NCBI GenBank assembly: GCA_029237695.1
Contig: CM055266.1
Coordinates: 12,603,805 to 12,667,804, forward strand
Direction: 5' to 3'
From: Conchocele bisecta
Taxonomy: Eukaryota; Mollusca; Bivalvia; Lucinida; Thyasiridae
DNA length: 64,000 nt
In this document: positions 2,482 through 53,499 of the stretch, in pieces
How the letters are laid out: every line of letters begins with the position of its first letter
How positions within the stretch are numbered: position 1 is the first letter of the stretch
Notes under the pieces: generated by a model
Databases searched by the model: none
Seen by the model: only the letters and a program-made list of their open reading frames with translations
Told to the model about the DNA's origin: nothing
Program-made: the position numbers and the translations under genes

Positions 2482-5400
2482 CTTAACTTTGGGTAAATGT
2501 CTTTTAACATCTGTTTTCATTCATGGAATGCCTTGATATTTCATACATGCATTCATCTGATGATACTCTATCGTGCTATAGCAAATCCATGACCCACCAC
2601 CCATCCCTTACCCCAAGGTCAAGGTCACAAACTTAGCACATTCATAAACTTAACGTTGGGGTAAATGTCTTATTATACCCCCCGCAACGAGTTGTGGTGG
2701 GGGGTATACTGGAGTCAGGTTGTCCGTCCGTCCGTAAACTTAAAAAACATCAGAGAAATATTGTTATAACTTCTATTTCCTTCATCTAAAATGCTTAATA
2801 TTTCACACATGCGTTCCTGTAAGGCTCTACTACCATGCTGTGCCAAATCCACGACCGTCCAACCCCCGCTGATCCCAAGGTCAAGGTCAAATACTTAGTC
2901 TCTTTACAAAACTTAACATCAGAAAAATATTGTTCTAACTTCTATTTCGTTCATCTAAAATTCTTAATATTTCACACATGCATTCCTGTAAGGCTCTAAT
3001 ACCATGCTGTGCCAAATCCATGACCGTCCAACCCCCGCTGATCCCAATGTCAAGGTCAAATACTTAGTCTTTTTACAAAACTTAACATCAGAGAAATAAG
3101 TTATAACTTCTATTTCCTTCATTGAAAATTCTTATTATTTCACTTGTGCATTCCTCTAAGGTTGTACTATCATGCTGTGACAAATCTACGACTGTCCAAC
3201 CCCCGCTGATCCCAAGGTCAAGGTCACATACTTAGTCTCTTTACAAAACTTAACATCAGAGAAATATGTTATTATAACTTCTATTTCTTTCATTGAAAAT
3301 TCTTAATATTTCATATGCTGTGACAAATCCCCGCTGATCTCGAGGTCAACGTCACATACATACCGTATAACCTCGAATTAACGCCCCCCCCCTCCTAATA
3401 AACCCCCCCCCCCAAATATTTTTTTGTTTTTTTTTACCAATGACCGCCAATTTCAAACACAAATAATCCTTAAATCCTTATTTGTGTTTGAAAGTTTGAA
3501 ATTGGCGGTCCTTGGTAATTTATTTATTTTTTTTTTTTACTGGCTAATAAACGCCCCCCCCCTTTTGTAAAATGTAACGCCTCTGGGTGCGTTAATTCGA
3601 GGTTATACGGTAGTCTCTTTACAAAACTTAACATCGGAGATAATTCTATTTCCTTGCTCGGATCTGCTTCACATTTGACACACTCATTGCTCCAATGGAC
3701 CTCTACCACCCTGTGACAAATTCATGTTCATGCCGCTTGCGCTAATCCCAGAGTCAAGGTCACAAGCCCACACACTTGGAAATTTTTACATATTTTAGGG
3801 GTACCTGGGCCCACGCGGGGGGTATTCCGTAAGCCTCGCTTACTGACCAATCTAGTTACATCTGTTTCCTTTCATGGAACGCCTTGATATTTCATACATG
3901 CATTCCTCAGATGACCCTCTATCATGCTGCAGTAAATCCACGACCCACCACCCAACCCTTACCCCAAGGTCAAGGTCACAAACTTAGCATGTTCATAAAC
4001 TTAACGTTGGGGTAAATGTTGTGTAACTTCTGTTTATTTACAGGGAATGCCTTCATATTTCATACATGCATTCATCTGTCTATCGTTGCTTATAGCAAAT
4101 ATCTGGCTATTAGCCACCTTTATCCGTGCTTTATGAGCAAATCCATGACACCCCTTTCCCCAAGGTCAAGGTCACAAACTTATCACATTCGTAAACTTAA
4201 CGTTGGGGTAAATGTAACATCTGTTTCCTTTCAGAACATTCATCTGCTGCTACCCTATCATGCTATAGCAAATCCATGACCCACCGCCCACCTCTTACCC
4301 CAAGGTCAAGGTCACAAACTTAGCACATTCATGAACTTAACGTTGGGGTAAATGTTGTGTAACTTCTGTTTATTTACAGGGAACGCCTTCATATTTCATA
4401 CATGCATTCATCTGATGATACTCTATCGTGCTATAGCAAATCCATGACACCCCACCCCTTTCCCCAAGGTGAAGGTCACAAACTTAGCACATTCATAAAC
4501 TTAACGGTGGGGTAAATGTAACATATGTTTCCTTTCATGGAACGCCTTGATATTTCATACATGCATTCATCTGATGTTAGCCTATCATGCTATAGCAAAT
4601 CCATGACCCACCTCTTACCCCAAGGTCAAGGTCACAAACTTAGTACATTCATAAACTCAACGTTGGGGTAAATGTTTTATAACATCTGTTTCCTTTCATG
4701 GAACGCCTTGATATTTCATACATGCATTCCTCAGATGACCCTCTATCATGCTGTAGCAAATCCACAACCCACCACCCAACCCTTACCCCAAGGTCAAGGT
4801 CACAAACATAGCATGTTCATAAACTTAACATTGGGGTAAATGTTGTGTAACTTCTGTTTCTTTACAGGGAACGCTTTGTTCTTTCATAGGTACATGCATT
4901 CATCTGATGATCCTCTATTGTGCTACAGCAAATCCATGACCCACCCCACCCCTTTCCCCAAGATCAACATCATAAACTTAAAGTTGGAGTAAATGTCTTT
5001 TTATAACTTCTGTTTCTTTACCTTGAACCACCTTGATATTTCATACATGCATTCATCTGATGATACTCTATCGTGCTATAGCAAATCCATGACCCTGCCC
5101 CCACCCCTTTCCCCAAGGTCAAGGTCACAAACTTAGCACATTCATAAACTTAACGTTGGGGTAAATGTTTTATAACATCTGTTTCCTTTCATGGAACGTC
5201 TTGATATTTCATACATGCATTCCTAAGATGACCCTACATGTATATCGTGCTGTAGAAAACCCACAACCCACCACACAACCCTTACCCCAAGGTCAAGGTC
5301 ACAAACTTAGCATGTTCATAAACTTAACGTTGGGGTAAATGTTGTGTAACTTCTTTTTTTTTACAGGGAACGCTTTGATATTTCATACATGCATTCATCT

Positions 5401-5900
5401 GATGATCCTCTATTGTGTTACAGCAAATCCATGACCCACCCCTTTCCCTAAGATCAACATCATAACCTTAACGTTGGAGTAGATATCTTTTTATAACTTC
5501 TGTTTCTTTACAGGGAACGCCTTGATATTTCATACATGCATTCATCTGATGATTCTCTATTGTGTTACAGCAAATCCATGACCCACCCACCCCACCCCTT
5601 TCCTCAAGATCAATGTCGCAAACTTAGCACATTCATACATGCATTCCTCATGTGAATAGCTATCATGCTGTAGAAAATCACCAACTTAGTGCGTTCATAA
5701 ACTTAACGTTGCGTTAAATTTTGTTTTACTTCTGCTTTCAGGGAGCGCATTGATATTTCATACATGCATTCATCTTAATACATGTATGCTATATCATGCT
5801 ATGCAAATCCACGAACCACCTTCCACCACTGACCCCAATGTCAAGGTCCACCGCACACCCCTTAACCTAACATCAAGTTATATAATATTCATGTTTTTTT
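2482..5900 (+). repeat. tandem array of ~165-175 bp cores (GTTGGGGTAAATG type)
   Basis: About a dozen or more imperfect units, each with AACTTAACGTTGGGGTAAATG-like sequence, a run through TTTCATACATGCATTC, then AAATCCATGACCCACC and CCCAAGGTCAAGGTCACA. Interrupted at 2674-3856 by a different tandem-core element. Short open frames here are chance frames of the repeat. The array ends in GTTATATAATATTCATG, as do arrays ending near 19285 and 43520. The core array of a non-autonomous element; its own ends are not clear. Confidence 0.85.
2674..3856 (+). mobile_element. nested tandem-core Helentron-like element, complete
   Basis: Begins TATACCCCCCGC with a hairpin, followed by TCCGTCCGTCCG and several ~170 bp cores (AACTTCTATTTCCTTC ... 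CCAAGGTCAAGGTCA). Ends GCGGGGGGTATTCC...CTAGT, so the subterminal inverted repeat is ATACCCCCCGC / GCGGGGGGTAT. The interrupted host core reads GTCTTAT|TACATCTG; the uninterrupted form is present at 18295-18310. The element therefore sits between two T bases with no target duplication, as known for Helentrons. An inner inverted repeat (about 3367-3615, CGTATAACCTCGAATTAACG and its complement) is a further small foldback insertion. Confidence 0.75.
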
Positions 5901-5954
5901 ATACAACTGTGCCAAGTTTGAGTGAAGGCTGCCAACATGCGAGCTTCGTTGTCT

Positions 5955-6175
5955 TCTGACAACTCTTGTTGTATCCAATTCTATATCATTTCTACTTTAC
6001 ACATCTGTGCCTAAATTAGTATATATGTTTAACACAACGAGATGAATAAATAATGCTATAGAGTTTCAAATTTTCATTAATGTTTCTTGCCTGAGTGACA
6101 GCTTCACATTTCTGCATCTTCGCTGTCTGGCCCATATTCGACAAGCGTATTTTGTGACTTACAGCACAGTTGTTG
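5955..6175 (+). repeat. duplicated segment U, copy 1
   Basis: Matches 8930-9085 (TGTATCCAATTCTATAT..., GACAGCTTCACATTTCTGC, TCTTCGCTGTCTGGCCCAT). The copies differ by small indels. No coding potential seen. Confidence 0.6.
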
Positions 6176-6243
6176 TTTTTCAGTCCAGGCGGGTGCTGTG
6201 GGTAACCGTGAGCCTCTGCTTGCTTGCTCCAGTTTATTATGTT

Positions 6244-6561
6244 TTACCCCTGTGCGTCCGTTTGTGCGTCTGTGCGTCCGTAAGGCAAATGCAATTAACT
6301 ATGTCTATCTAGGGATGCTGCTTTGTTTCGCATAAGACCCATGCCTGAACACCCAATGTCAAGGTCACTAGGGGCTTATGTTCACCTTGTTTGTAAGGCA
6401 AATGCGTTTAATATTTTCTCAATAACTCCTTAACTCCTTCACCAATTTCAATAATATTTACCCACAATGTCTGTCTAGGGATTAGCTTCGTGATAACAAT
6501 GCCCTTTTACTATCAAGGCTGCAGGTGGGGGCATCCGCGTTCTATGAACACACTTTCTAGT
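6244..6561 (+). mobile_element. short tandem-core element
   Basis: TTTTACCCCTGTGCGTCCG start with GTGCGTCCG repeats, two short cores (GGCAAATGC..., CCAATGTCAAGGTCACT), and a 3' end GGGGGCATCC...TTTCTAGT. The layout matches the other tandem-core elements here, with the CTAGT end. Confidence 0.5.
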
Positions 6562-6623
6562 TTTATTTAAATTAATTAATTACCTTTTTGAAAAATCCAC
6601 ACTCTGTTCACCTTTATTATCAG

Positions 6624-6686
6624 CTACAGATGACAGTGAAGGAGCAACTGCACTTCATCAGACCGAAGCCCTGAAATCGGGACCTG
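6624..6686 (+). CDS. candidate 63-nt internal exon (uncertain)
   Basis: An acceptor with a pyrimidine tract (TTTATTATCAG) is followed by 63 nt open in one frame, phase 1 at both ends, with the peptide TDDSEGATALHQTEALKSGP. The donor (G|GTTTCC) is weak. Phase and acidic composition would fit the macro-domain gene downstream, joining directly to the 11609 exon, but it does not join in frame to the 10716 exon as drawn. The bases after the donor belong to repeat T. May be chance. Confidence 0.25.
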
Positions 6687-6965
6687 GTTTCCAAAGAACA
6701 ATGAGCGTGCCATTATTTAGGGTTAGTATGGCAGTAGTGGTCTAATCACAATAACAATGCATTTGGATATAATTTGTTTTGGGAAACCCGTATGTAATAG
6801 CAAATTTTGTCCAAATATTTAGGGTTAATACGATAAGTGTTTGCGACTATGGTGCTTTGTTTCACGTCTGAACATCCAAGGTCAAGGTCACTGAGGACTT
6901 ATGTTCATATTACATGTATGATCAAGGCTGCAATGACAGGTTTAGCTTAGTAATAATCAGCCGTT
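6687..6965 (+). repeat. duplicated segment T, copy 1
   Basis: Matches 12937-13262 (GTTTCCAAAGAACAATGAGC, GGTTAGTATGGCAGTAGTGG, a TCAAGGTCA motif and a shared end near ACACTAGTG). Non-coding; class unknown. Confidence 0.6.
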
Positions 6966-6996
6966 TTTACACTAGTGTATATATATTATGATTTTT

Positions 6997-8829
6997 AGCT
7001 TGACTATTCGAAGAATAAGTAGAGCTTATGTTGTCACCCCGGCGTTTGTATATGGAATACTACTGGCCCTACACCCACCATACTTGGACAACTTCATATC
7101 CTAGTGATGTACATCAATAACCCCTGATCTATATTTGACCTTGACCTACATTTCATCTTGAATTACTTGGTTAATTCCCTTGGTTAAGGTTTTTATTCAA
7201 CCTTGGTTAAGGTTTTTAGTCAAGCTTGTATATGCAATACTACTGGCCCTACACCCACCATACTTGGACAACTTCATCTCCTAGTGATGCACATCAATAA
7301 CCCCTCATTTATATTTGACCTTGACCTACATTTCCTCTTGAATTACTTACTTAATTCCCCTTGGTTAAGGTTTTTAGTCAACCTTGGTTAAGGTTTTTTT
7401 TCAAGCTTGTACATTGAATACTATTGTGCATCCAGACACCATACTTCGACAACCTTTTCTCATAGGTATGTACATCAATAACCCCTGATCTATATTTGAC
7501 CTTGACCTACATTTCCTCTTCAATTACTTACTTAATTCCTTTGGTTAAGGTTTTTTAGTCGACCTTCTATATGGAATACTACTAGCCCTACACCCACCAT
7601 ACTTGGACAACTTCATTTCCTAGTGATGTACATCAACAGCCCTGATCTATATTTGACCTTGACCTACATTTCCTCTTGAATTACTTACTTAATTCCCCTT
7701 GGTTAACGTTTTTAGTCAAGCTTGTAGATGGAATACTCCTGGCCCTACACCAACCATACTTGGACAACTTCATCTCCTAGTGATGTACATCAACAACCCC
7801 TGACCTATATTTGACCTTGACCTACATTTAACCTTGAATTACTTACTTAATTCCCCTTGGTTAAGGTTTTTACTCGACCTTGGGTTTTTACTGATTAAGC
7901 CTTTTACTCAAGCTTGTACAAATGGAATTACTATTGTGCATTTACAGACCCACCATACTTGGTCAACCTTTTCTCATAGTGATGTACATCAATAACCCCT
8001 GATCTATATTTGACCTTGACCTACATTTCCTCTTGAATTACTTACTTAATTCTCTTTGGTTAAGGTTTTTAGTCAAGCTTGTAGATGGAATACTCATGGC
8101 CCTACACCAACCATACTTGGACAACTTCATCTCCTAGTAATGTACATCAACAACCCCTGATCTATATTTGACCTTGACCTACATTTAACCTTAAATTACT
8201 TACTTAATTCCCCTTGGTTAAGGTTTTTACTCGACCTTGGTTAAGGTTTTTAGTCAAGCTTGTAGATGGAATACTATTGTGCATACAGACACCATACTTG
8301 GATAACTTTTTCTCATAGGGATGTACGTCAATAACCCCTGACCTTTATTTTACCTTCACCCTACATTTAACCTGATTTATTACTTGCTTAATGTTTATAG
8401 TCAAGCTTGTACTATGGAATACTTCTGGGCCTACATCAACCATACTTGGACAACTTCATCTCCTAGTGATGTACATCAATAATCCCTGACCTATATTTGA
8501 CCTTGACCTACTTTTATCCTTTTTAGATTACTTAGTTATCTCCCCTTGGTTACGGTTTTTACTCAAGCTTGTATATGGAATACTCCTGGGCCTACAGCAA
8601 CCATACTTGAAAAACTTTATCTCCTAGTGATGTACATCAATAACCCCTGACCTATATCTGACATTGACCTACATTTAACCTTGAATTACTTACTTAATTT
8701 CCCTTGGTTAAGGTTTTTAGTCAACCTTGGTTAAGGTTTTTATGCAGGCCGCAGCCACCTTATTTGTCAAGCTATGTGTACATCGACAACCCTCGTAGTC
8801 GAGCTATGCTGTTCTCCTACAGCTCTTGT
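6997..8829 (+). mobile_element. tandem-core Helentron-like element, ~10 cores
   Basis: 5' end AGCTTGACTATTCG with a hairpin; 3' end TAGTCGAGCTATGC...CTCTTGT. Subterminal inverted repeat AGCTTGACTA / TAGTCGAGCT. Inside are about ten ~165 bp cores with GGAATACTACTGGCCCTACA, CTAGTGATGTACATCAAT and TTTGACCTTGACCTACATTT. The TGACCTTGA motif is the complement of the TCAAGGTCA found in other cores. Confidence 0.75.
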
Positions 8830-25752: not shown

Positions 25753-27024
25753 TGTCGCGCCCGCTTGCGGAAAGCGCGATATAGTCGGCACTTTGGCGTA
25801 CGTACGTGTGTCCAGTTAAAGTTTTTGGTTAAAGTTGTTTGGTTAAGTTTTTTGGTTAAAGTTTTTGGTTAAGTTATTTGGTTAAAGTTTTTGGTTAAGT
25901 TTTTTGGTTAAAGTTTTTGGTTAAAGTTTTTCGTTATACTATATCTCTGCAACTGCTTTGCCCATTACCTTGAAACTTCACATGGGTGTTTATCATCATC
26001 TATATTTTCATTCTACCCCCCTCCCGTGCGGCCCCTGTGCCCAATGTCAAGGTCAAATTACTTTGAAGTTTTTGGTTAAGTTTTTTGGTTAAAGTTTTTG
26101 GTTAAGTTTTTTGGTTGTTTTTTTTAAAGTTTTTAAATTTTTTGTTGTACTATATCTCTGCAACTGCTTTGCCCATTACCTTGAAACTTCACATGGGTAT
26201 TTATCATCATCTATATTTTCATTCTACCCCCTCCCGTGCGGCCCCTGTGCCCAATGTTAAGGTCAAATTACTTTGAAGTTTTTGGTTAAGTTTTTTGGTT
26301 AAAGTTTTTGGTTAAGTTTTTTGGTTAAAGTTTTTCGTTATACTATATCTCTGCAACTGCTTTGCCCATTACCTTGAAACTTCACATGGGTGTTTATCAT
26401 CATCTATATTTTCATTCTACCCCCCTTCCGTGCGGCCCCTGTGCCCAATGTCAAGGTCAAATTACTTTGAAGTTTTTGGTTAAGTTTTTTGGTTAAGTTT
26501 TTGTCGCGCCCGCTTGCGGAAAGCGCGATATAGTCGGCACTTTGGCGTACGTACGTGTGTCTGGTTAAAGTTTTTGGTTAAGTTGTTTGGTTAAGTTTTT
26601 TGGTTAAAGTTTTTGGTCGAGTTCTTTGGGTAAAGTTTTTGGTTAACTTTTTTGGTTAACTTTTTTGGTTAAAGTTTTTCGTTATACTATATCTCTGCAA
26701 CTGCTTTGCCCATTACCTTGAAATTTCACATGGGTGTTTATCATCATCTGTATTTTCATTCTACCCCACTCCCGTGCGGCCCCTGTGCCCAATGTCAAGG
26801 TCAAATTACTTTGAAGTTTTTGGTTAAGTTTTTTGGTTAAAGTTTTTGGTTATGTTTTTTGGTTAAGTTTTTTGGTTAAAGTTTTTGGTTATGTTTTTTG
26901 GTTAAATTTTTTGGTTAAAGTTTTTGGTTAAGTTTTTTGGTTAAGTTTTTCGTTATACTATATCTTTTTTTTTAGTGTCCATGCCTCGCCACTAGGCGCG
27001 ACATGCAGGCCGCGGCCATCTAGT
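25753..27024 (+). mobile_element. tandem-core Helentron-like element, GTCGCGCC type, with an internal second 5' end
   Basis: 5' end TGTCGCGCCCGCTTGCGG forming a hairpin with AAAGCGCGA; 3' end AGGCGCGACATGCAGGCC...CATCTAGT. Subterminal repeat GTCGCGCC / GGCGCGAC. Cores alternate GGTTAAAGTTTTT simple repeats with TATATCTCTGCAACTGC, TCATCATCTATATTTTCATT and CCAATGTCAAGGTCAAATTA. A second 5' end at 26502 shows that two elements were joined or the end was duplicated. Confidence 0.8.
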
Positions 27025-27148
27025 TAGATTAAACCCCCCAACTATATAGTTTTCACAGTTTTGGGCTCGGTTACATTTTGGAAAATACGAATCAAGACAT
27101 TTTGTGCGTATGAATAAAGCAGCTATTATCTTTAGTTTTCACAGTTAG

Positions 27149-27985
27149 TAGTCTGGCAGTCAACTAGCTTAACCTGGAAGTGGAGTATATACAATGTTTT
27201 TTGATTGATTTTGGTCACTGAGACCATAAAGATTGAAAATCCGCGTGATGACACCCTGTCATCTTTGGGCAACTTTTCTAATTTGCATAAAACCAAGATG
27301 GCCGCCAGTGTTCTATTGCATATACTATAATTAGGATATCTCGGCTTCTAGAAGAAAGGGATTTTGAAACAATCTAAACTGTTTTAGCAGGGCTTTTAAG
27401 ACATTGGGAAACAAATGGAATAATTTTTAATATGATTCGAAAACTCCTTCATTCGGATAAATCCAAAATGGCCGCCAGTGTTCTATTGAATATACTATAA
27501 ATTAAGTATCTCGGCTTCTAGAAGGGATTTTTTGAAACGATCTAAACTGTTTTAACAGGGCTTTAAGACATTGGGAATCAAATGGAATAATTTGTATTAT
27601 GATTAGAAAACTCCTTCATTTGCATAAATCCAGATGGCCGCCAGTGTTCTATTGAATATCTATAATTAGATATCTCGGCTTCTAGAAGGGATTTTAAAAC
27701 AATCTAAACTGTTTTAACAGGGCTTTAAGACATTAGGAACCAAATGGAATAATTTTTAATATGATTCGAAAACTCCTTCATTTGCATAAATCCAAGATGG
27801 CCGCCGTACGAACTACACAATCTTCAATTGTAATATATACTTAACCAAACTGTCTTTGTGTATGTTTTCGATGACAAGGGGACATATTTTAAGCATCAAT
27901 GACTTTACGACACAAGGAACACAATGGAATAGCTTTAATTATCATTTGACAACTCCATCATTTGCATGAAACCAAGATGGCCACT
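27149..27985 (+). repeat. left terminal inverted repeat with three internal ~165 bp units
   Basis: After the outer ~145 bp come three tandem units, each from AGTGTTCTATTG through TCTCGGCTTCTAGAAG and AACTCCTTCATTTG to AAGATGGCCGCC (ends near 27474, 27638 and 27804), then a unit with TGTATGTTTTCGATGACAAG. The right repeat has one such unit. A fourth AAGATGGCCAC follows at 27976. Confidence 0.8.
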
Positions 27986-28186
27986 CTCAAAATGTCTCAT
28001 GAGACCGGTTTTATGTCCCCACATTCTGGATACAATTTTGGATACATTTGAAATTCTTATATTACCATGTTAATATATTAGCTTTATTTTCATATGCCAA
28101 TGCTGAACCAGCCATGGCGCATAAATAATCATTCACATTTCCTCTCCTAAACTACTGTGATATTATTGTTTTTAGTATATGACATT

Positions 28187-31100
28187 TCACACAGTTATCA
28201 ATATGATATTTCTCTCATGTGTCTGTGTTGACATTAATACCTGTCTATTGTCATCGTCGTCATCTGCATCAGAGGCTACATCACAATTAGTCAATTCGTT
28301 ATGACAGTCCTCAGCATGACACCCGCAGAATACAGTGCACGGTAGTTTACCGCTCACACATCCACATCTTCCTGACTTGCAAGGTCTATCACTTTCACAA
28401 GCGCAGCGAATCAGTTTCAAAATCTCTTGTGGGGCAAGGGACACATCTTCATGTATCGGTTTAGGCAGCATAGTCTTGGAACTGTCGTCACGAACGTATC
28501 CATGTTCTGTGGGAGGTAGCGAGGGAGGGTCTAGATCCAAAGCATGTTTCCAAACAGCTGCCTGCAGGTGTGCTCGTTTGACATTTTCCAGAAATGCTTC
28601 TGTTTTGGGAGGTAGAGACTTCAGCTTTGGTATGGCTGTGGTGCCCTTTCCCACCTTTGTGGCCCATGACTTCTTCCTTGCTTCAGACATATTACTACAG
28701 TCCTTGTGTCCATAGCATGCGGCCACAAACTTGGATGCCTGTCTTGTTATATCTGGTAACAATGCATGAATGTCACCCAAAAGTGACAAGGAGTAGCCTT
28801 CTCGCAGTACTTTCAGTATCCTGACTTTACCAATACCGAAATAGCATGCACATGTATCACAACCCGATAGGGCGTGCATAGACAACAGTCCATCTACTAT
28901 GCTCTGATGTTGTTAAACAGTAGCTTGTATGTCAATAACATTTCTACCATGAATCGGCGATTCCATGATCATGTGACTGGTTAACTGTCGCTCAAAGTAG
29001 TGGTGAAGCAGAAGGATGAAGACGTCGGTGTCATCTGCAATCACTGACACGCCTACTTTGCATTCAGTCGCGACTGTTACTGCTTGTTGAACAATGATGC
29101 AGTCTGCCTCTTCATGAGATGTAGACATGTCTTCGCGGTTTGATCACCACTACCCCATAACTTATTTCAACTGGTGTGTTTATCACAACTGCTAGTGATG
29201 ACAAGTTTGTGGGCCATTGTGTAGTCTCGATGGAAAAGTAGTGTCTCTGGTAAGCTCTTGACATATAATTTCCATCAGCTGTGATTTATTTTCTGACACT
29301 GTCAGGACAACTTTCTGTGGGGGTAGAGGTGTATCTAGAGCCAGTCGGTGTACTCTGCTTGCTTCTGTTGTTCTATTGCATCTGGTCGTACTCTTGGTAC
29401 TGAAATCCTGGTACCTGTCGAACACGAGATAGACATCGCTATAAGTAAGTTTATGTTGGATGTACTGTTTGAAGTTCACAACAAAGTCACGGACTGTCCC
29501 ATTCGCTGGCCAGTGTATCACCCAGAGGACAGTTGAACCATCTAGCACCCTGCAGTCGACTTTGGGTGATACATTCCTTGATGCCATTTCAACTTGTAGT
29601 TGCTTCTTCAACTGTGCCTTAGCCTTTCCAGTTCTCATGTCACCCGAGTCGTTGAACATCGATGTAGGCACCGGAGATAGCTCATACGATAGTAATGTCT
29701 TGATGTCTATTGTGTCACGACAGCTAGCTTGGAGTCCTATTACTCGGGAAAAGAGAAGAGTGGTATTGAACAATTTTGCTGTACCAATATTCACATGCTT
29801 TTTTGTTACTTGCATTGTCACCATCTTTTTAGAAATGGGATTGTAGAAGCCATCTGGCCAAGCACTCTCGAATTCTTTCATTTGTTTGGTCCCATGGTCA
29901 CAGTCTTATCAACGTTCACTGAAACAGGTGCCACTCGACCACTGACAATGTTCACTATCTTGTCTGCTTTCGTTGCTGGTGGACAGAGGATCGATGCTCC
30001 GATCTAACTTCTGACGAATGGTTGCCCTGTCAGCTGCGTCTGCTGCAATCCTCGATTTCTGCTCCTCTTTGTGGGTGTCCTATCTTGCTTCATGATCTGG
30101 GTCACTCATACGGGCAATGTCTTCACCAGCTTACTTCGAATGTGAGACCAAGTGCCCATGTCTTCAGAGTGTCTGGGTCGCAGCGTGATTCCAATGATTC
30201 CCACATGGCTGTGACCATACCTCATGAAGGTGGTCTCTATAAACATGTCACTCCAGATGCCGTTCCATACACCTGGAATGTGGTGCATGACATGTTCACC
30301 TTTCATGAATCTATCTCTGACCTCTGATGGCATTCCTTCCATTGACCGAAGGTAATATAGCCCATATCGTGCATAATTGACATGCCCGCTGGCGAAAAAG
30401 TAAGGCATCATCTGTTGAACAGCCTCCAGATGAAGTGGCCAGTCACCTTCCCTCTCTGCTCTGATGTACTGCATCATGATGAAGACTGGTTTAATAACCA
30501 CATCGACCCACAACTTTGCCGTTCTGCTGCTCGCCATATCGTCAAGGAATAAGATGAGTTCATCATAACTTGCCATGTTATTTTCATGTACAATCCTACG
30601 CAGCAGTTTCCTCGGCAACAATGCGAAGGGCGCGCACATTCTCTGTGGAAACTTCTTTCCAGACAACATTTTTGCAACCCCCGAAAACGCTTCATTCATG
30701 ACCTCTGCGAGTCCACTTTCTGCCATCAAGCTTCCAACTGCCCCAACAAAGCTCATTAGCATAGCATGCCGCCAAGACGCAGTACTACATTTGTTCAAAC
30801 TGCTCTGGATGTGTCCATAAGATCTGTAATGATACCCTGTACAGTTGTTGATCACATGTAAAGATGGTAAATTCCTGGCCAGTTTGTGCTGTTAGTCTTT
30901 CAGCCTGTACTAATGGCGGTCATCATCGTATCCGGATCTGCTGGTGGCATGTCAATAAGAGGCATGTACACTGCTTATTCTTGGGTGACAGGGACTGCCC
31001 ATGCTCTCGACACAGTTTTGTGTTGTATCCGTTGAACTCCGGACATGCATCACCAGACGTAATGTCCTTGATAAAGGCAAAGTCATTTACCGTAGCTCTC

Positions 31101-32687
31101 TCTTTTGCAATGACCTTGTGAGCCAAGAACTTTAGAGGCAATACTACTCTCTTGGTAGCTTTCATGGGCATGTTTGGTTTCTTTGGTCCATTGTATCGTT
31201 GAATCTCCAGTTCATATTGAATTGGAGTTGGCATATCAGCTTTCTTCACACGGGGGATCGTTTGCTGCACAGCATCCTGTGATACAGATGTATGTTGTGG
31301 CTGTGTCAGGAGTAGAGCTAAGGAATGTGTGGACAACTTTCCATTTTGAGAAGATATGTCGGCATCAAAGTTGTCAGCGACTGCCTGCACTAACCCCACA
31401 TGACAATCAGATAAACCACCAGACTGGTTTCTGTGGAGGCTGCTATTGCGGCCGATTTCTTGAAGCGAAGAACTTTCATCATATGAGCACGAGACTCCAA
31501 AATGATGAAGTTGTTTTACTATGTCCTTTGAGTCCTTCATAAGCATACCTAGTGCAATCTGAAGCGTTGTTGGGATGTTCCTGAGCAAACTGGTAATGAT
31601 ATTGCCGATGAGTATTGCTGGTAGAGTTTTGTCTAGTTTTTGGCGATATTTTCGCTAGCAAATGAAATAGTGTGTCACTTACACAGTCTGCGGCACTGTC
31701 TTTGTCAATTCGGATGTCATAATGCCGTTCAATGTGCTCTACATCTTGGAGTTCTTGAATGATCTTCTTTCCCACACTGTTGATTGCACTATCTAGTTCA
31801 CCACAGTCATCAGATGGAACCAGCTTTAGGAGACCCGAAGTTTTGCTTCTAAATACAACGAGGTTAGCTACGCCAGGAGACGATAGCACAAGGAGATCTT
31901 CACCAAAGTGATGTGAAAGTTGTTTCACCAATTGCTTTCGCGCCGTCAGTCTGGTACCCCCATTGTCTTCATACAATTGGAACAACTCTACAGAGTTCCA
32001 GATTTGAGAAAGGTCTTGATTAAGTGTGTTAACCAGTGCATTGAAAGCATCGTCATTCTGTCCAGCATGTGATACGCTTGCAGAGGCACACTTAACCGAT
32101 CTTTCGCCCAGGAATTTCGACATGCAATCAACATGGTAACGTGCATCGGCAGCATGCAAGTCACTGAGCGCTCCCAGTACACGTACTCTCACCTCGCTAG
32201 CCCAGCCATCATTTCGCGTGTCACATGTCTCGAGAATTACGTATTTGAATGATTTCGCACCACTACCTCGATCAGCGGTCCTGCATAAAACAGCACGTCT
32301 CCAGCGATCGGGGTGCTTTGGATCCTTTTCAATATCACACGGAAGGCCACAAAATATACAATGATGCAGGAACTCAAAGTTAGATGCACCAGATCTACGT
32401 TGTTGTTTCTTAGGTATACCTCCAGACGTTTGTGGTGGGACTCCTTGTCTTTTGAGGTGTCTATTCACCTGTTGTTGTGAAACATATGTCGACACACAGT
32501 TTCTGTGACACTGAATCGTAAGGTCACTGTTAGCGTCAAGTTTTTCTTGTAGCACCACATGTAGGCCATCACCATATTGTTTGCTACACTTGATGATTGT
32601 CTTTATTCTCGCACTCCCAGCAGAGCTCAAGTCTGTGGCACCCGGATCACATCCAAACTTCCACTTGAAACAGCACTCTTCTTCCTC
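28187..32687 (-). pseudogene. relic C: near full-length FEN/XPG-like nuclease / CXC family gene, frameshifted
   Basis: Intronless, about 1,500 codons. Probable start MEEEECCFKW (32687); an in-frame Met also lies at 32732. Order: Cys/His region (CSKQYGD...CHRNC; CIFCGLPC...C), middle part (TTLQIALGMLMKD; KFLAHKVIAKERATVNDF), scaffold with MSFVGAVGSLMAESGL, LWVDVVIKPVFIMMQYI and GIWSDMFIETTFMRYGHS, then nuclease motifs LDGSTVLWVIHW, VYLVFDRYQDFSTK, STSHEEADCIIVQQ, IADDTDVFILLLH and HALSGCDTCACYFGIGK, and a CXC domain (CACESDRPCKSGRCGC, CTVFCGC). The EEAD, DDTD and GCDT...GIGK series parallels the acidic residues and helix-two-turn-helix of FEN1/XPG. Breaks seen: an extra A in an A5 run at 31637-31641; shifts near 30965, 30915, 30800 and 30773; a stop near 30070; shifts near 29960, 29890 and 29145; TAA at 28910-28912. 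Some could be assembly errors, but not all lie in homopolymers. Function unknown; its place between inverted repeats suggests a transposition protein. Confidence 0.8.
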
Positions 32688-32759
32688 CATATTTCTTTTA
32701 CTGAAAACAGAAGTTAGTACATTAGAAAACAAGAGACCCAGATACCTTAACGTTCACCT

Positions 32760-33869
32760 GAAGGACTGAGTGCAATTTTCTCTTTTTTCCAACATGTGAT
32801 TTTTGCTTAGTCAAGGGCAATAACTGTGTCGTTACTGAATGGATCGGCATCAAGAATATGAGGTGCGTAACTACACATGATGACAAACATTCCTGTAACA
32901 TTTGGCAACTCTAGGTCAACATTTTTCTTTTTTTTTTCTTTTTTTTTTTAAATGATTTGACAAGGTCGTAATAGCATGTACTATGCCTCAGCATATCAGT
33001 TACTCCACTGTGATACTAGTATAGGCTGTCGCCATGTCAAGTGAGACGGAATAAAGACTGCATGTACCGTTTAATGGAATGGAGACTGGTTCTGGCTCAC
33101 ATCTTGATGGTGTCCAACTGTTGTCGGGTCGGCAGATAGTGTAACGATGGCGGGTGATGGCCTCTGGTCATGTTGATGGTATGTCTGAAAAATGATTATG
33201 GACGTCTATAGGTCTACATATTTGCCAGCATGAGCAAAATTTAGGAAGAGGTGGGGAGTTATTCATCAGTCCGAGTACTGTTACGGTCCGGATATAGGGA
33301 CATAGATTGGTCGAAAATGACTATCTTCACATTCACAGAAAAAAATGGGCAGGTTTGGGCCCAGAACTGCTTTTAGTTTTTTTTCCAGGGTGGGGAGGGG
33401 GAGGGCGTTACTCATCATTCCGACTACTGGTACCGTTCGAGTATTGGCATGTAAACACATTAACTATATTCAGCATTTATAATATAAGTTTCAGATCAAC
33501 AAGAGATGAAGCAAAGTTGTAGTTAATGAGTTTTAACTATCTACAAGTTTGTTATTAGCATATATAAGTGGATAGAACATGTATAATTACCTGAAATACA
33601 TAAAAAATAGCAGATGACAGTTTTTTTTTTGTTGTTGTTGTAGCCTGTAGGTCTTCCACTCCTCCCGCTGACTTTTCGGCTCACAATCGCAAAATAGACA
33701 TTTGTCAGCCATCGTGATGGTCAATTTTGGATTTCTATGAACAGGGACTAGTCGAAATATTATTTTCACTTCAGAAACAGATTCTTTCCCACAGAAAACC
33801 GATGTGGGCGCGCCAAGATCATCTTCGTACGTCTATTTGAACAGAAGTTATAATTTTTTCCAGGGTTTT
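32760..33869. other. 5' region of relic C inside the element
   Basis: No gene. Holds T-runs (32930-32950) and a repeated GTGGGGAGTTATTCATCAGTCCGA-like sequence (33250 and 33395; phrase GTTA(C/T)TCATCA). Expected to contain the promoter of the minus-strand gene; no clear TATA box recognised. Confidence 0.4.
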
Positions 33870-34366
33870 GGTGACCATTTTGGTGGCCATCTTGGATGTT
33901 TATACAGTTTTTCGCAGCATTGATGCTTAAAATCTGTCCCCTTGTCATCGAAAACATACACAAAGACAGTTTGGTTAAGTATATATAAATATATTGCCAA
34001 ATATATGACAATTAGAAGATTTTGTAGTTTGTACGGCGGCCATCTTGGATTTATGCAATTGAAGGAGTTTTCGAATCATAATAAAATTATTTCATTTGGT
34101 TCCTAATGTCTTAAAGCCCTGTTAAAACAGTTTAAATTGTTTTAAAATCCCTTCTAGAAGCCGAGATATCTTAATTATAGTATATCAAATAGAACACTGG
34201 CGGCCATCTTGGTTTTATGCAAATTAGAAAAGTTGCCCAAAGATGACAGGGTGTCATCACGCGGATTTTCATTATTTATGGTCTCAGTGACCCAAATCAA
34301 TCAAAAAACATTGTATATACTCCACTTCCAGGTATACCCCTAAAATCCCAGTTGACTGCCAGACTA
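33870..34366 (-). repeat. right terminal inverted repeat
   Basis: Complement of 27149-27292 joined to one ~165 bp unit and the following TGTATGTTTTCGATGACAAG stretch. GGCGGCCATCTTGG occurs twice (34033, 34199) and GGTGGCCATCTTGG once (33885). Differences from the left arm are few point changes and small indels; I did not compute an exact identity. Confidence 0.8.
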
Positions 34367-34577
34367 TAGGTAGCAGTGACCAGTTAGCCGCCAATTTCGT
34401 ACAATTTACAAACAGTAATTTATTCTAGAGAAAACATGTGGATGGGAATGGTTTGCACCAGCACAGTACATTTGCCTCTTGATGATGATTGAGAAAATAT
34501 GCAACTTTCAGTCTCCACTTCCGCAAGTGATCAGTTTTTGTGGAGATAACATAGTTCAGTACTTTCAGTACTTTGAT

Positions 34578-51660: not shown

Positions 51661-53499
51661 CCTGATTTGTTTGCCTATTAGTATATAAAAATCGTGTTAA
51701 ATTTGTAACAGTCTATCGTCAGAAATCGTGTTATATTTGCGATCATATTGCTGCGGAAAGTGGTATTATTATTGTTAACTATTGATTGCGGTATGTATTA
51801 TCTCTGTGTGTTTGAAGTTAAGAAATAAAGGTAGTACTTGCATGTACGTACATTAGTACAATTCCGCATTTCCTCATCTTCCGTCATTTACAGAAAATAT
51901 CACAGTAACATCAAACAATACTGCAAGGTCCGATTTTCTTTTGAAGTCTGCCAGAAACCAGAACACACATATCATCAGCCGATTACTCCATGACCCAACA
52001 TTCCTTTCATATATAAAGCCACCGACAATTCCGCATGAATTCTGAATTTTGTGTCAACTTTTCAACACCATTTACGGAAAATATTTTCGAAATCAATATC
52101 GGCGAAATATGGCGACAGATCTGCGTATAATCCAGTGTTTTTTTAGCTCACCTGAGCGAAGCTCATGTGAGCTATTGTTACCGCAATGTGTCCGTCGTCG
52201 TCGTCCGTCGTCGTCGTCTGTGAACATTTTCAAACGTCTTCTCCTCGGTAACCATTGGGCCTATTGTTACCAAACTTCATGGTCATGGTCCTTAGGTAGG
52301 GGGATTACAAAATTGTTAAAATGACGTCATTACGTAATCCAAGATGGCCGCCGTCTAAAAATAGCATAAATTCTTCAAAAATCTTCTTCTCAAGAACCGC
52401 CGACCTGATTTCGACAAAACTTGTTAGGAATGATCGATGTACAATGCTTTTTCAAAGTTGTTAAAAGGGTGACCCCGAGGTTAAAAATGGGCGTGGCCCG
52501 TGGGATCAAATTGGGGTCAAATTTTATTTTTGACTGAATATGGTCATATCATATATCAAATCGAAGGTATCAACGAGGCGATCGCTCTGCTGCATTTATT
52601 GTCGAAATCGGATGGTTATGTCATCCAAGATGGCCGCCAAAAGGTCAAACGATTGTTCTTTTATTATACCCACTTTTTTGTAAAAAAAAAATGGGTATAT
52701 TGTTTTCGTCACGGGTGTCCGTCCGTCCGTACTTACGAGAGCTACATTGTGAGGTTGCTGTGTTGTGCTGAAACCCACCCACCGCCCTATTTAAGACACT
52801 TGGATAAGTGTTTTTCAAATATAATTAACTAATGGCTAGCTCATTTGCATATTATGCGATTTATTCCGTAAGAGAATCGTTAAGGAAGAAAATAACGGAA
52901 TAAGTTGCTACATTGTGAGGTTAACCCCACAGTGTAAACATCAAAGGAAATAACCTCACAATGTATCTCTCGTAAGAACGTCCGTCCGTCCGTCCGTACG
53001 TCCGTTACGTCCGTCCGTCCGTCACGTTTCTTGTAACTCGAAAAACTTGTTCACCTTCATACCTACGCGCCTGATATTTGGTATGTAGCTTCGTTATCAT
53101 GTGCAGATGCGCAAAGTGAATTCGGATTTTTGATCCGACCCTCCATCATGGATTATCTCCCCCATTTCGGACTCGAATTTCCCATTTTTTCCTTGTAACT
53201 CGATTACCTTCTACCTACGCGCCTCATATTTGCTATCAGCTTCGTTATCCCATGTGCCAATTGCGCAAAGTAATTTCGGATTTTTGTCCGACCCTCCTAT
53301 GGATTATCTCCCCCCTTCGGATTCAGAATTTTCCCATTTTTTTCCTTGTAACTCGAAAAACTTTTTCACCTTATACCTACCTCATATTTGCTATGCAGCT
53401 TCGTTATCATGTGCAGATGCGCAAAGTGAATTCGGATTTTTAGATCCGACCTCCATTATGGATTATCTCCCCCTTTCGGACTCAGAATTTCCCATTTTT

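Follow-up and report, generated by a model that had tools for sequence, protein, structure and literature searches.

The stretch of DNA analyzed here (the window) comprises 64,000 nucleotides of the genome of the bivalve Conchocele bisecta (GenBank assembly GCA_029237695.1, contig CM055266.1, positions 12,603,805 to 12,667,804) and contains, at window positions 27149-34366, an element of 7,218 bp with inverted arms at either side and a single minus-strand gene between them. The element is very probably a young DNA transposon with multiple copies in the genome, belonging to the AcademX type of the Academ superfamily; in its protein a DDE core resembling that of the P element and a FEN/XPG nuclease are preceded by a Cys/His region and followed by a CXC domain. 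Its filing under AcademX rests on published descriptions and not on an alignment to any Academ reference sequence. A preliminary description of this DNA had proposed a mobile element with inverted repeats, a FEN/XPG-fold nuclease and a CXC end, and this was borne out by the predicted fold and the conservation of the protein. The present analysis adds to it a DDE transposase in the same protein, a 3-bp target duplication and the broken state of the window copy.

Both termini of the element, at positions 27149 and 34366, start with the same 17 bases, TAGTCTGGCAGTCAACT. Repeat comparison placed the outer part of the left terminal inverted repeat at 27149-27354 on the plus strand and that of the right one at 34151-34366 on the minus strand. 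Within them the arms 27172-27354 and 34151-34333 (183 nt) are 97 % complementary, and additional arms reach inward to 27901 and 33918, respectively. In the window sequence the copy is bounded on each side by the triplet TAG (27146-27148 on the left and 34367-34369 on the right), which constitutes a 3-bp target duplication.

A probe made of the left end gave at least 41 matches in the genome. The copies studied were the window and 20 retrieved stretches, six of which (L023-L028) failed the two-end test and were left out of the duplication count. The flanking 3 bp were equal in all 15 two-ended copies (window included) and the fourth base was never in common. The duplicated triplets varied among the copies (TAG, AAT, CCA, ATG, AAA, TTG, ATA, TAT, TAA, CTG and TTA) and therefore represent target sequence and not element sequence. 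The pairwise identity of the 15 copies was 94.6-99.7 % with a median of 99.1 %, so the family is young, and it has been active recently. One of the copies, L014, is a 4.3 kb deletion with intact ends. The whole transposon was delimited from these ends and triplet duplications, with 15 or more two-ended copies present in the genome.

To find sites without the insertion, the two flanks of every copy among the 15 were joined with one triplet and the product was compared with the window and the retrieved loci only; four matches crossing the junction were inspected in detail. The empty site for copy L017 was found in the window itself (52241-52428, 188 columns, 92.6 % identity) and the one for copy L022 in L025 (172 columns, 94.2 % identity). 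Both matches are free of gaps and are sites lacking the insertion, with the triplet present once. The two remaining matches were less clean: that for L010 is gapped away from the junction, and in that for L013 a gap of two bases falls on the junction. With the probe matches, the equal flanks and the two gap-free empty sites, the element noticed in the preliminary description was confirmed far beyond chance.

These data also bear on the possibility that the sequence belongs to a host gene family that has undergone duplication, or is a piece of a virus or a Polinton. Such an origin could be read from the annotation of the named animal homologues (Holothuria, Nematostella, Branchiostoma), which are listed as hypothetical, predicted or uncharacterised. 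It does not account for the exact common ends, the triplet duplications and the empty sites, and a relative was encoded in none of the 16 pattern-matching stretches of viral contigs and in none of the 60 from prokaryote genome contigs. This explanation was rejected as hardly credible.

The transposase gene (28240-32690, minus strand) comprises approximately 1,480 codons, starts with the ATG at 32690-32688 and ends at about 28245, the end being approximate in view of small indels; no intron was seen in the family. Interruptions in the window copy leave five open stretches of at least 100 codons each. Of the 15 two-ended copies none carries an intact gene; the best is L010, whose frame extends over 1,479 codons from the start ATG to the terminal TAG and contains two internal in-frame TAG codons. 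Residue numbers refer throughout to the family protein P0003. A protein search gave 128 homologues and a profile search 156. The best 120 of each were combined into a set of 176 distinct proteins, of which 63 matched nearly the full length of the query (starting before residue 100 and ending beyond residue 1380); uninterrupted relatives therefore exist.

The N-terminal part of the protein (approximately 32060-32690, minus strand) contains the conserved residues C7, C15, H63, C66, C112, C115, H187 and C190, a pattern that suggests a probable role in zinc or DNA binding. It is followed by an RNase-H-like DDE core at residues about 431-860 (approximately 30114-31403, minus strand), delimited from the model, the fold match, a weak overlap with the Pfam family DUF6589 and conservation. 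The predicted model of this part shows the RNase-H-like order of elements, and a second-look structural aligner gave the P-element transposase as the best fold match, followed by Hermes and RAG1; Foldseek alone returned nothing significant for this region (best E 0.34). Among the homologues covering the respective positions D440 was kept in 163/163, D614 in 173/173 and E818 in 146/147.

The FEN/XPG nuclease core occupies residues about 1040-1390 (approximately 28524-29576, minus strand) and was recognized from the model, the fold matches and conservation. Its predicted structure is a PIN-like fold with a helix-two-turn-helix (GIGK), matching FEN/XPG folds, and by this model the domain is a member of the FEN/XPG (5'-nuclease) family and may cleave flaps or branched DNA. 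The motif series DGS, VFDRY, HEEAD, DDTD and GCDT...GIGK of the preliminary description is present in the order given there, with the CXC cysteines behind it. FEN1 has a metal-binding acidic cluster formed by D34, D86, E158, E160, D179, D181 and D233, and also K93/R100. Counterparts in P0003 were assigned by their order and place in the model. The acidic ones were kept as follows: D1050 in 126/127 homologues, D1091 in 124/124, D1195 in 108/108, D1219 in 106/106, D1221 in 104/106 and D1277 in 104/104, with E1193 in 99/108 (D in seven more); K1099 was retained in 108/113 and R1106 in 104/112. The identity to Exo1, FEN1 and XPG nucleases in structural alignments was about 11-17 %, and unlike these enzymes the present nuclease is fused to a transposase and has a CXC domain behind it.

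This last domain, of the TSO1/EZH2-like type, was placed by its conserved cysteines at residues about 1420-1465 (approximately 28299-28436, minus strand). The match of the region to EZH2 chains in a sequence search of PDB was non-significant (E 6.7); the homologue P0035 of Holothuria carries the source name Tesmin/TSO1-like CXC. At the thresholds used, Pfam reported neither an XPG nor a CXC domain for P0003 or any of 33 family members, and the PDB sequence search with P0003 yielded nothing significant (best E 0.47).

The preliminary description had suggested that the nuclease is used instead of a DDE transposase, that is, that the element represents a new superfamily moving by the FEN/XPG enzyme alone, with neither a DDE nor an HUH enzyme. 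The nuclease fold and motifs are real. However, the same protein contains a transposase core with P-element transposase as its best fold match, and its D, D and E are conserved at least as strongly as the FEN residues. The checks put forward with that proposal, namely the FEN/PIN fold and the presence of inverted repeats in relatives, both had a favourable outcome, though they were blind to a second enzyme.

More distant relatives bear on the same question. A genome search with the C-terminal part of the protein gave at least 110 matches, and eight further loci (L041-L048) were read, with main matches of 44-57 % protein identity. Two recognisable ends were found in six of them, every end starting with TAGTC, and the flanking triplets were equal in four of these six (L042, L044, L047 and L048) and unequal in L041 and L045, the left end of the latter being doubtful; at L043 and L046 a second end was not found. 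Two of the loci, L042 (positions 4482-8640) and L047 (4170-8604), have both ends and 3-bp duplications, show similarity to the protein only in its C-terminal half, starting near residue 735 and including the nuclease, and retain open frames for FEN plus CXC of 758 and 653 codons, respectively. They could be taken as elements that live on the nuclease alone. Since in both the left repeat runs almost directly into the middle of the gene, and the first half with D440 and D614 is gone, they are apparently deletion derivatives, and their open frames may reflect youth and not selection. Movement by the nuclease without a DDE enzyme was rejected as very improbable, in view of the DDE core in the protein.

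As to classification, the preliminary description knew of no named superfamily of this kind, a statement that is at variance with what has been published on Academ. Published accounts place Academ among the DDD/E transposase superfamilies (PMC9587614), mention a RecQ helicase for Academ (PMC3627910) and link the duplications of 9-10 bp in AcademH versus 3-4 bp in AcademX to the encoded helicase versus nuclease (PMC10045372). According to PMC10294476, in which the words nuclease and XPG do not occur, an amplification of Academ is specific to bivalves, with 100 curated autonomous elements of 5,565 bp mean length. Of the features described for AcademX, a DDD/E core, an element-encoded nuclease, a 3-bp duplication and terminal inverted repeats were found in the element, the likeness being one of description. 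The nucleases of AcademX are reportedly of XPG type (Kapitonov and Jurka 2010; Kojima 2020); no paper in the literature searched contained both 'Academ' and 'XPG' as whole words. The young family is new, but it fits the known Academ group and very probably does not form a new superfamily.

The P superfamily was considered as another affiliation. Its target-site duplication is 8 bp, in contrast to 3 bp in all 15 copies here. The family also differs from the P-element transposase (6pe2) in the FEN nuclease fused to it and in the lack of a significant sequence match in the PDB search.

The transposase core may be shared with AcademH, as judged by similarity to DUF6589, AcademH having a helicase in place of the nuclease and duplications of 9-10 bp. 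The similarity is weak: P0003 scored 21.7 bits, below the cut-off of 27, and 6 of 33 family members gave a match at E ≤0.01, with P0163 at 28.4 bits and P0107 and P0109 without any; copy L016 reached 28.7 bits against the same cut-off. The same genome (G000) contains at least 71 matches to DUF6589 and at least 38 to RecQ-type helicases. Among the matches listed, the two lie no more than 10 kb apart on opposite strands at seven places (C1:54.72 Mb, C1:102.42 Mb, C5:59.29 Mb, C9:31.37 Mb, C13:54.00 Mb, C16:5.12 Mb and C492:0.27 Mb), versus about 0.03 expected by chance according to rough arithmetic. Two of the loci span C16:5117840-5120175 and C1:54721675-54728606. The seven places hold 11 of the 38 RecQ-type matches listed, none of the 11 reaching the cut-off of a RecQ-type family. 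Such an arrangement is consistent with AcademH elements that DUF6589 would link to the family of the window, and it hints at DUF6589 being the transposase core of Academ. DUF6589 gave no match in any of 14 control genomes, which by their names are prokaryotic and hence uninformative on animals.

Two observations are the basis for considering a mechanism: the element inserts at varied sites with duplication of 3 bp, and one protein contains two conserved, predicted nuclease folds. The DDE domain would cut and join the 3' ends, with the two strands staggered by 3 bp; binding of the element ends would fall to the Cys/His and CXC regions, and cleavage of the 5' (non-transferred) strand there to the FEN/XPG domain. 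A single polypeptide would thus cleave both strands, a task divided in Tn7 between TnsA and TnsB. Tn7 is prokaryotic and its TnsA is not known to have a FEN fold; the likeness of the element to TnsA-TnsB and the TnsAB fusions, in which a DDE enzyme and a second, unrelated nuclease likewise cut both strands, is one of analogy only. In Tn7-like systems, according to PMC8188705, cointegrates replace simple insertions when TnsA is inactive, and TnsAB fusions occur naturally. By this analogy a 5'-strand cut at the element ends is a plausible role for the FEN/XPG domain, without yet being a probable one.

A DDE transposon might instead employ its FEN/XPG domain after integration, in the removal of 5' flaps or the trimming of gaps, which perhaps sets the 3-bp duplication, while the second strand would be cut by the DDE domain or by host enzymes. 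Flap removal is the established activity of FEN1 in cells. The dependence of duplication length on the encoded helicase or nuclease in AcademH and AcademX would fit with this as well (PMC10045372). On the other hand, host FEN1 is already at hand, and the strict conservation of a copy borne by the element would then be harder to explain. A post-integration function is possible and was ranked below the 5' cut. A wider version of the latter, in which the protein would be a one-chain eukaryotic counterpart of TnsA-TnsB with a DDE enzyme acting on the 3' ends and a captured FEN/XPG repair nuclease on the 5' strand, the nuclease choosing between cut-and-paste and replicative (cointegrate-like) transposition and its exchange for a helicase (AcademH) altering both the outcome and the duplication length, seems doubtful as a whole.

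The family is a clean and young one, with exact ends, triplet duplications, empty sites, many uninterrupted relatives and two unrelated, strongly conserved nucleases in one protein, and it makes testable what benefit a DDE transposon draws from a flap nuclease. No transposition assay of an Academ element turned up in the literature searches, none of which was aimed at one. Some TSO1/CXC proteins that are annotated in animals as uncharacterised may also be accounted for by this family, the one named case being P0035 of Holothuria.

Among the 176 homologues the match ends recurred at query residues 774-775 in 11 (P0144, P0148, P0150, P0151 and P0153-P0159) and at 1092-1093 in 10 (P0078-P0080, P0082, P0087, P0097, P0098, P0130, P0131 and P0133). 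These recurrent ends in predicted open reading frames suggest conserved introns, in other lineages, of an otherwise intronless gene. One homologue, P0071, is filed under a bacterial metagenome-assembled genome of Sedimenticola; since none of the 60 prokaryote stretches mentioned above encoded a relative, it may represent animal DNA inside a symbiont assembly.

Two of the stretches left out of the duplication count, L027 and L028 (contig C5 of G000, about 56269257-56284060), are old copies with 89 and 90 % identity to the element of the window and 84 % to each other. They are arranged head to tail and have the bases TA in common at the junction of their ends, which could result from a nested insertion or from a circle junction; the outer left end is degraded.

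Near its ends the element carries subterminal repeats with a unit length of about 165 bp, in four imperfect copies at 27281-27982 on the plus strand with inverted partners at 33918-34224 (repeat families D3-D6, pairs I2-I10). Their joint motif ATTTGCATNAANCCAAGATGGC has six matches with at most three mismatches in the window, all of them within the element, versus 0.04 expected. In these repeats ATTTGCAT, a perfect POU octamer motif, adjoins the YY1-like AAGATGGC, and the two are possible candidates for promoter or end-binding sites. Rfam at gathering thresholds gave no match within the element. Directly to its left, at 26526-26995, lies an array of 13-bp tandem repeats resembling TGGTTAAGTTTTT.

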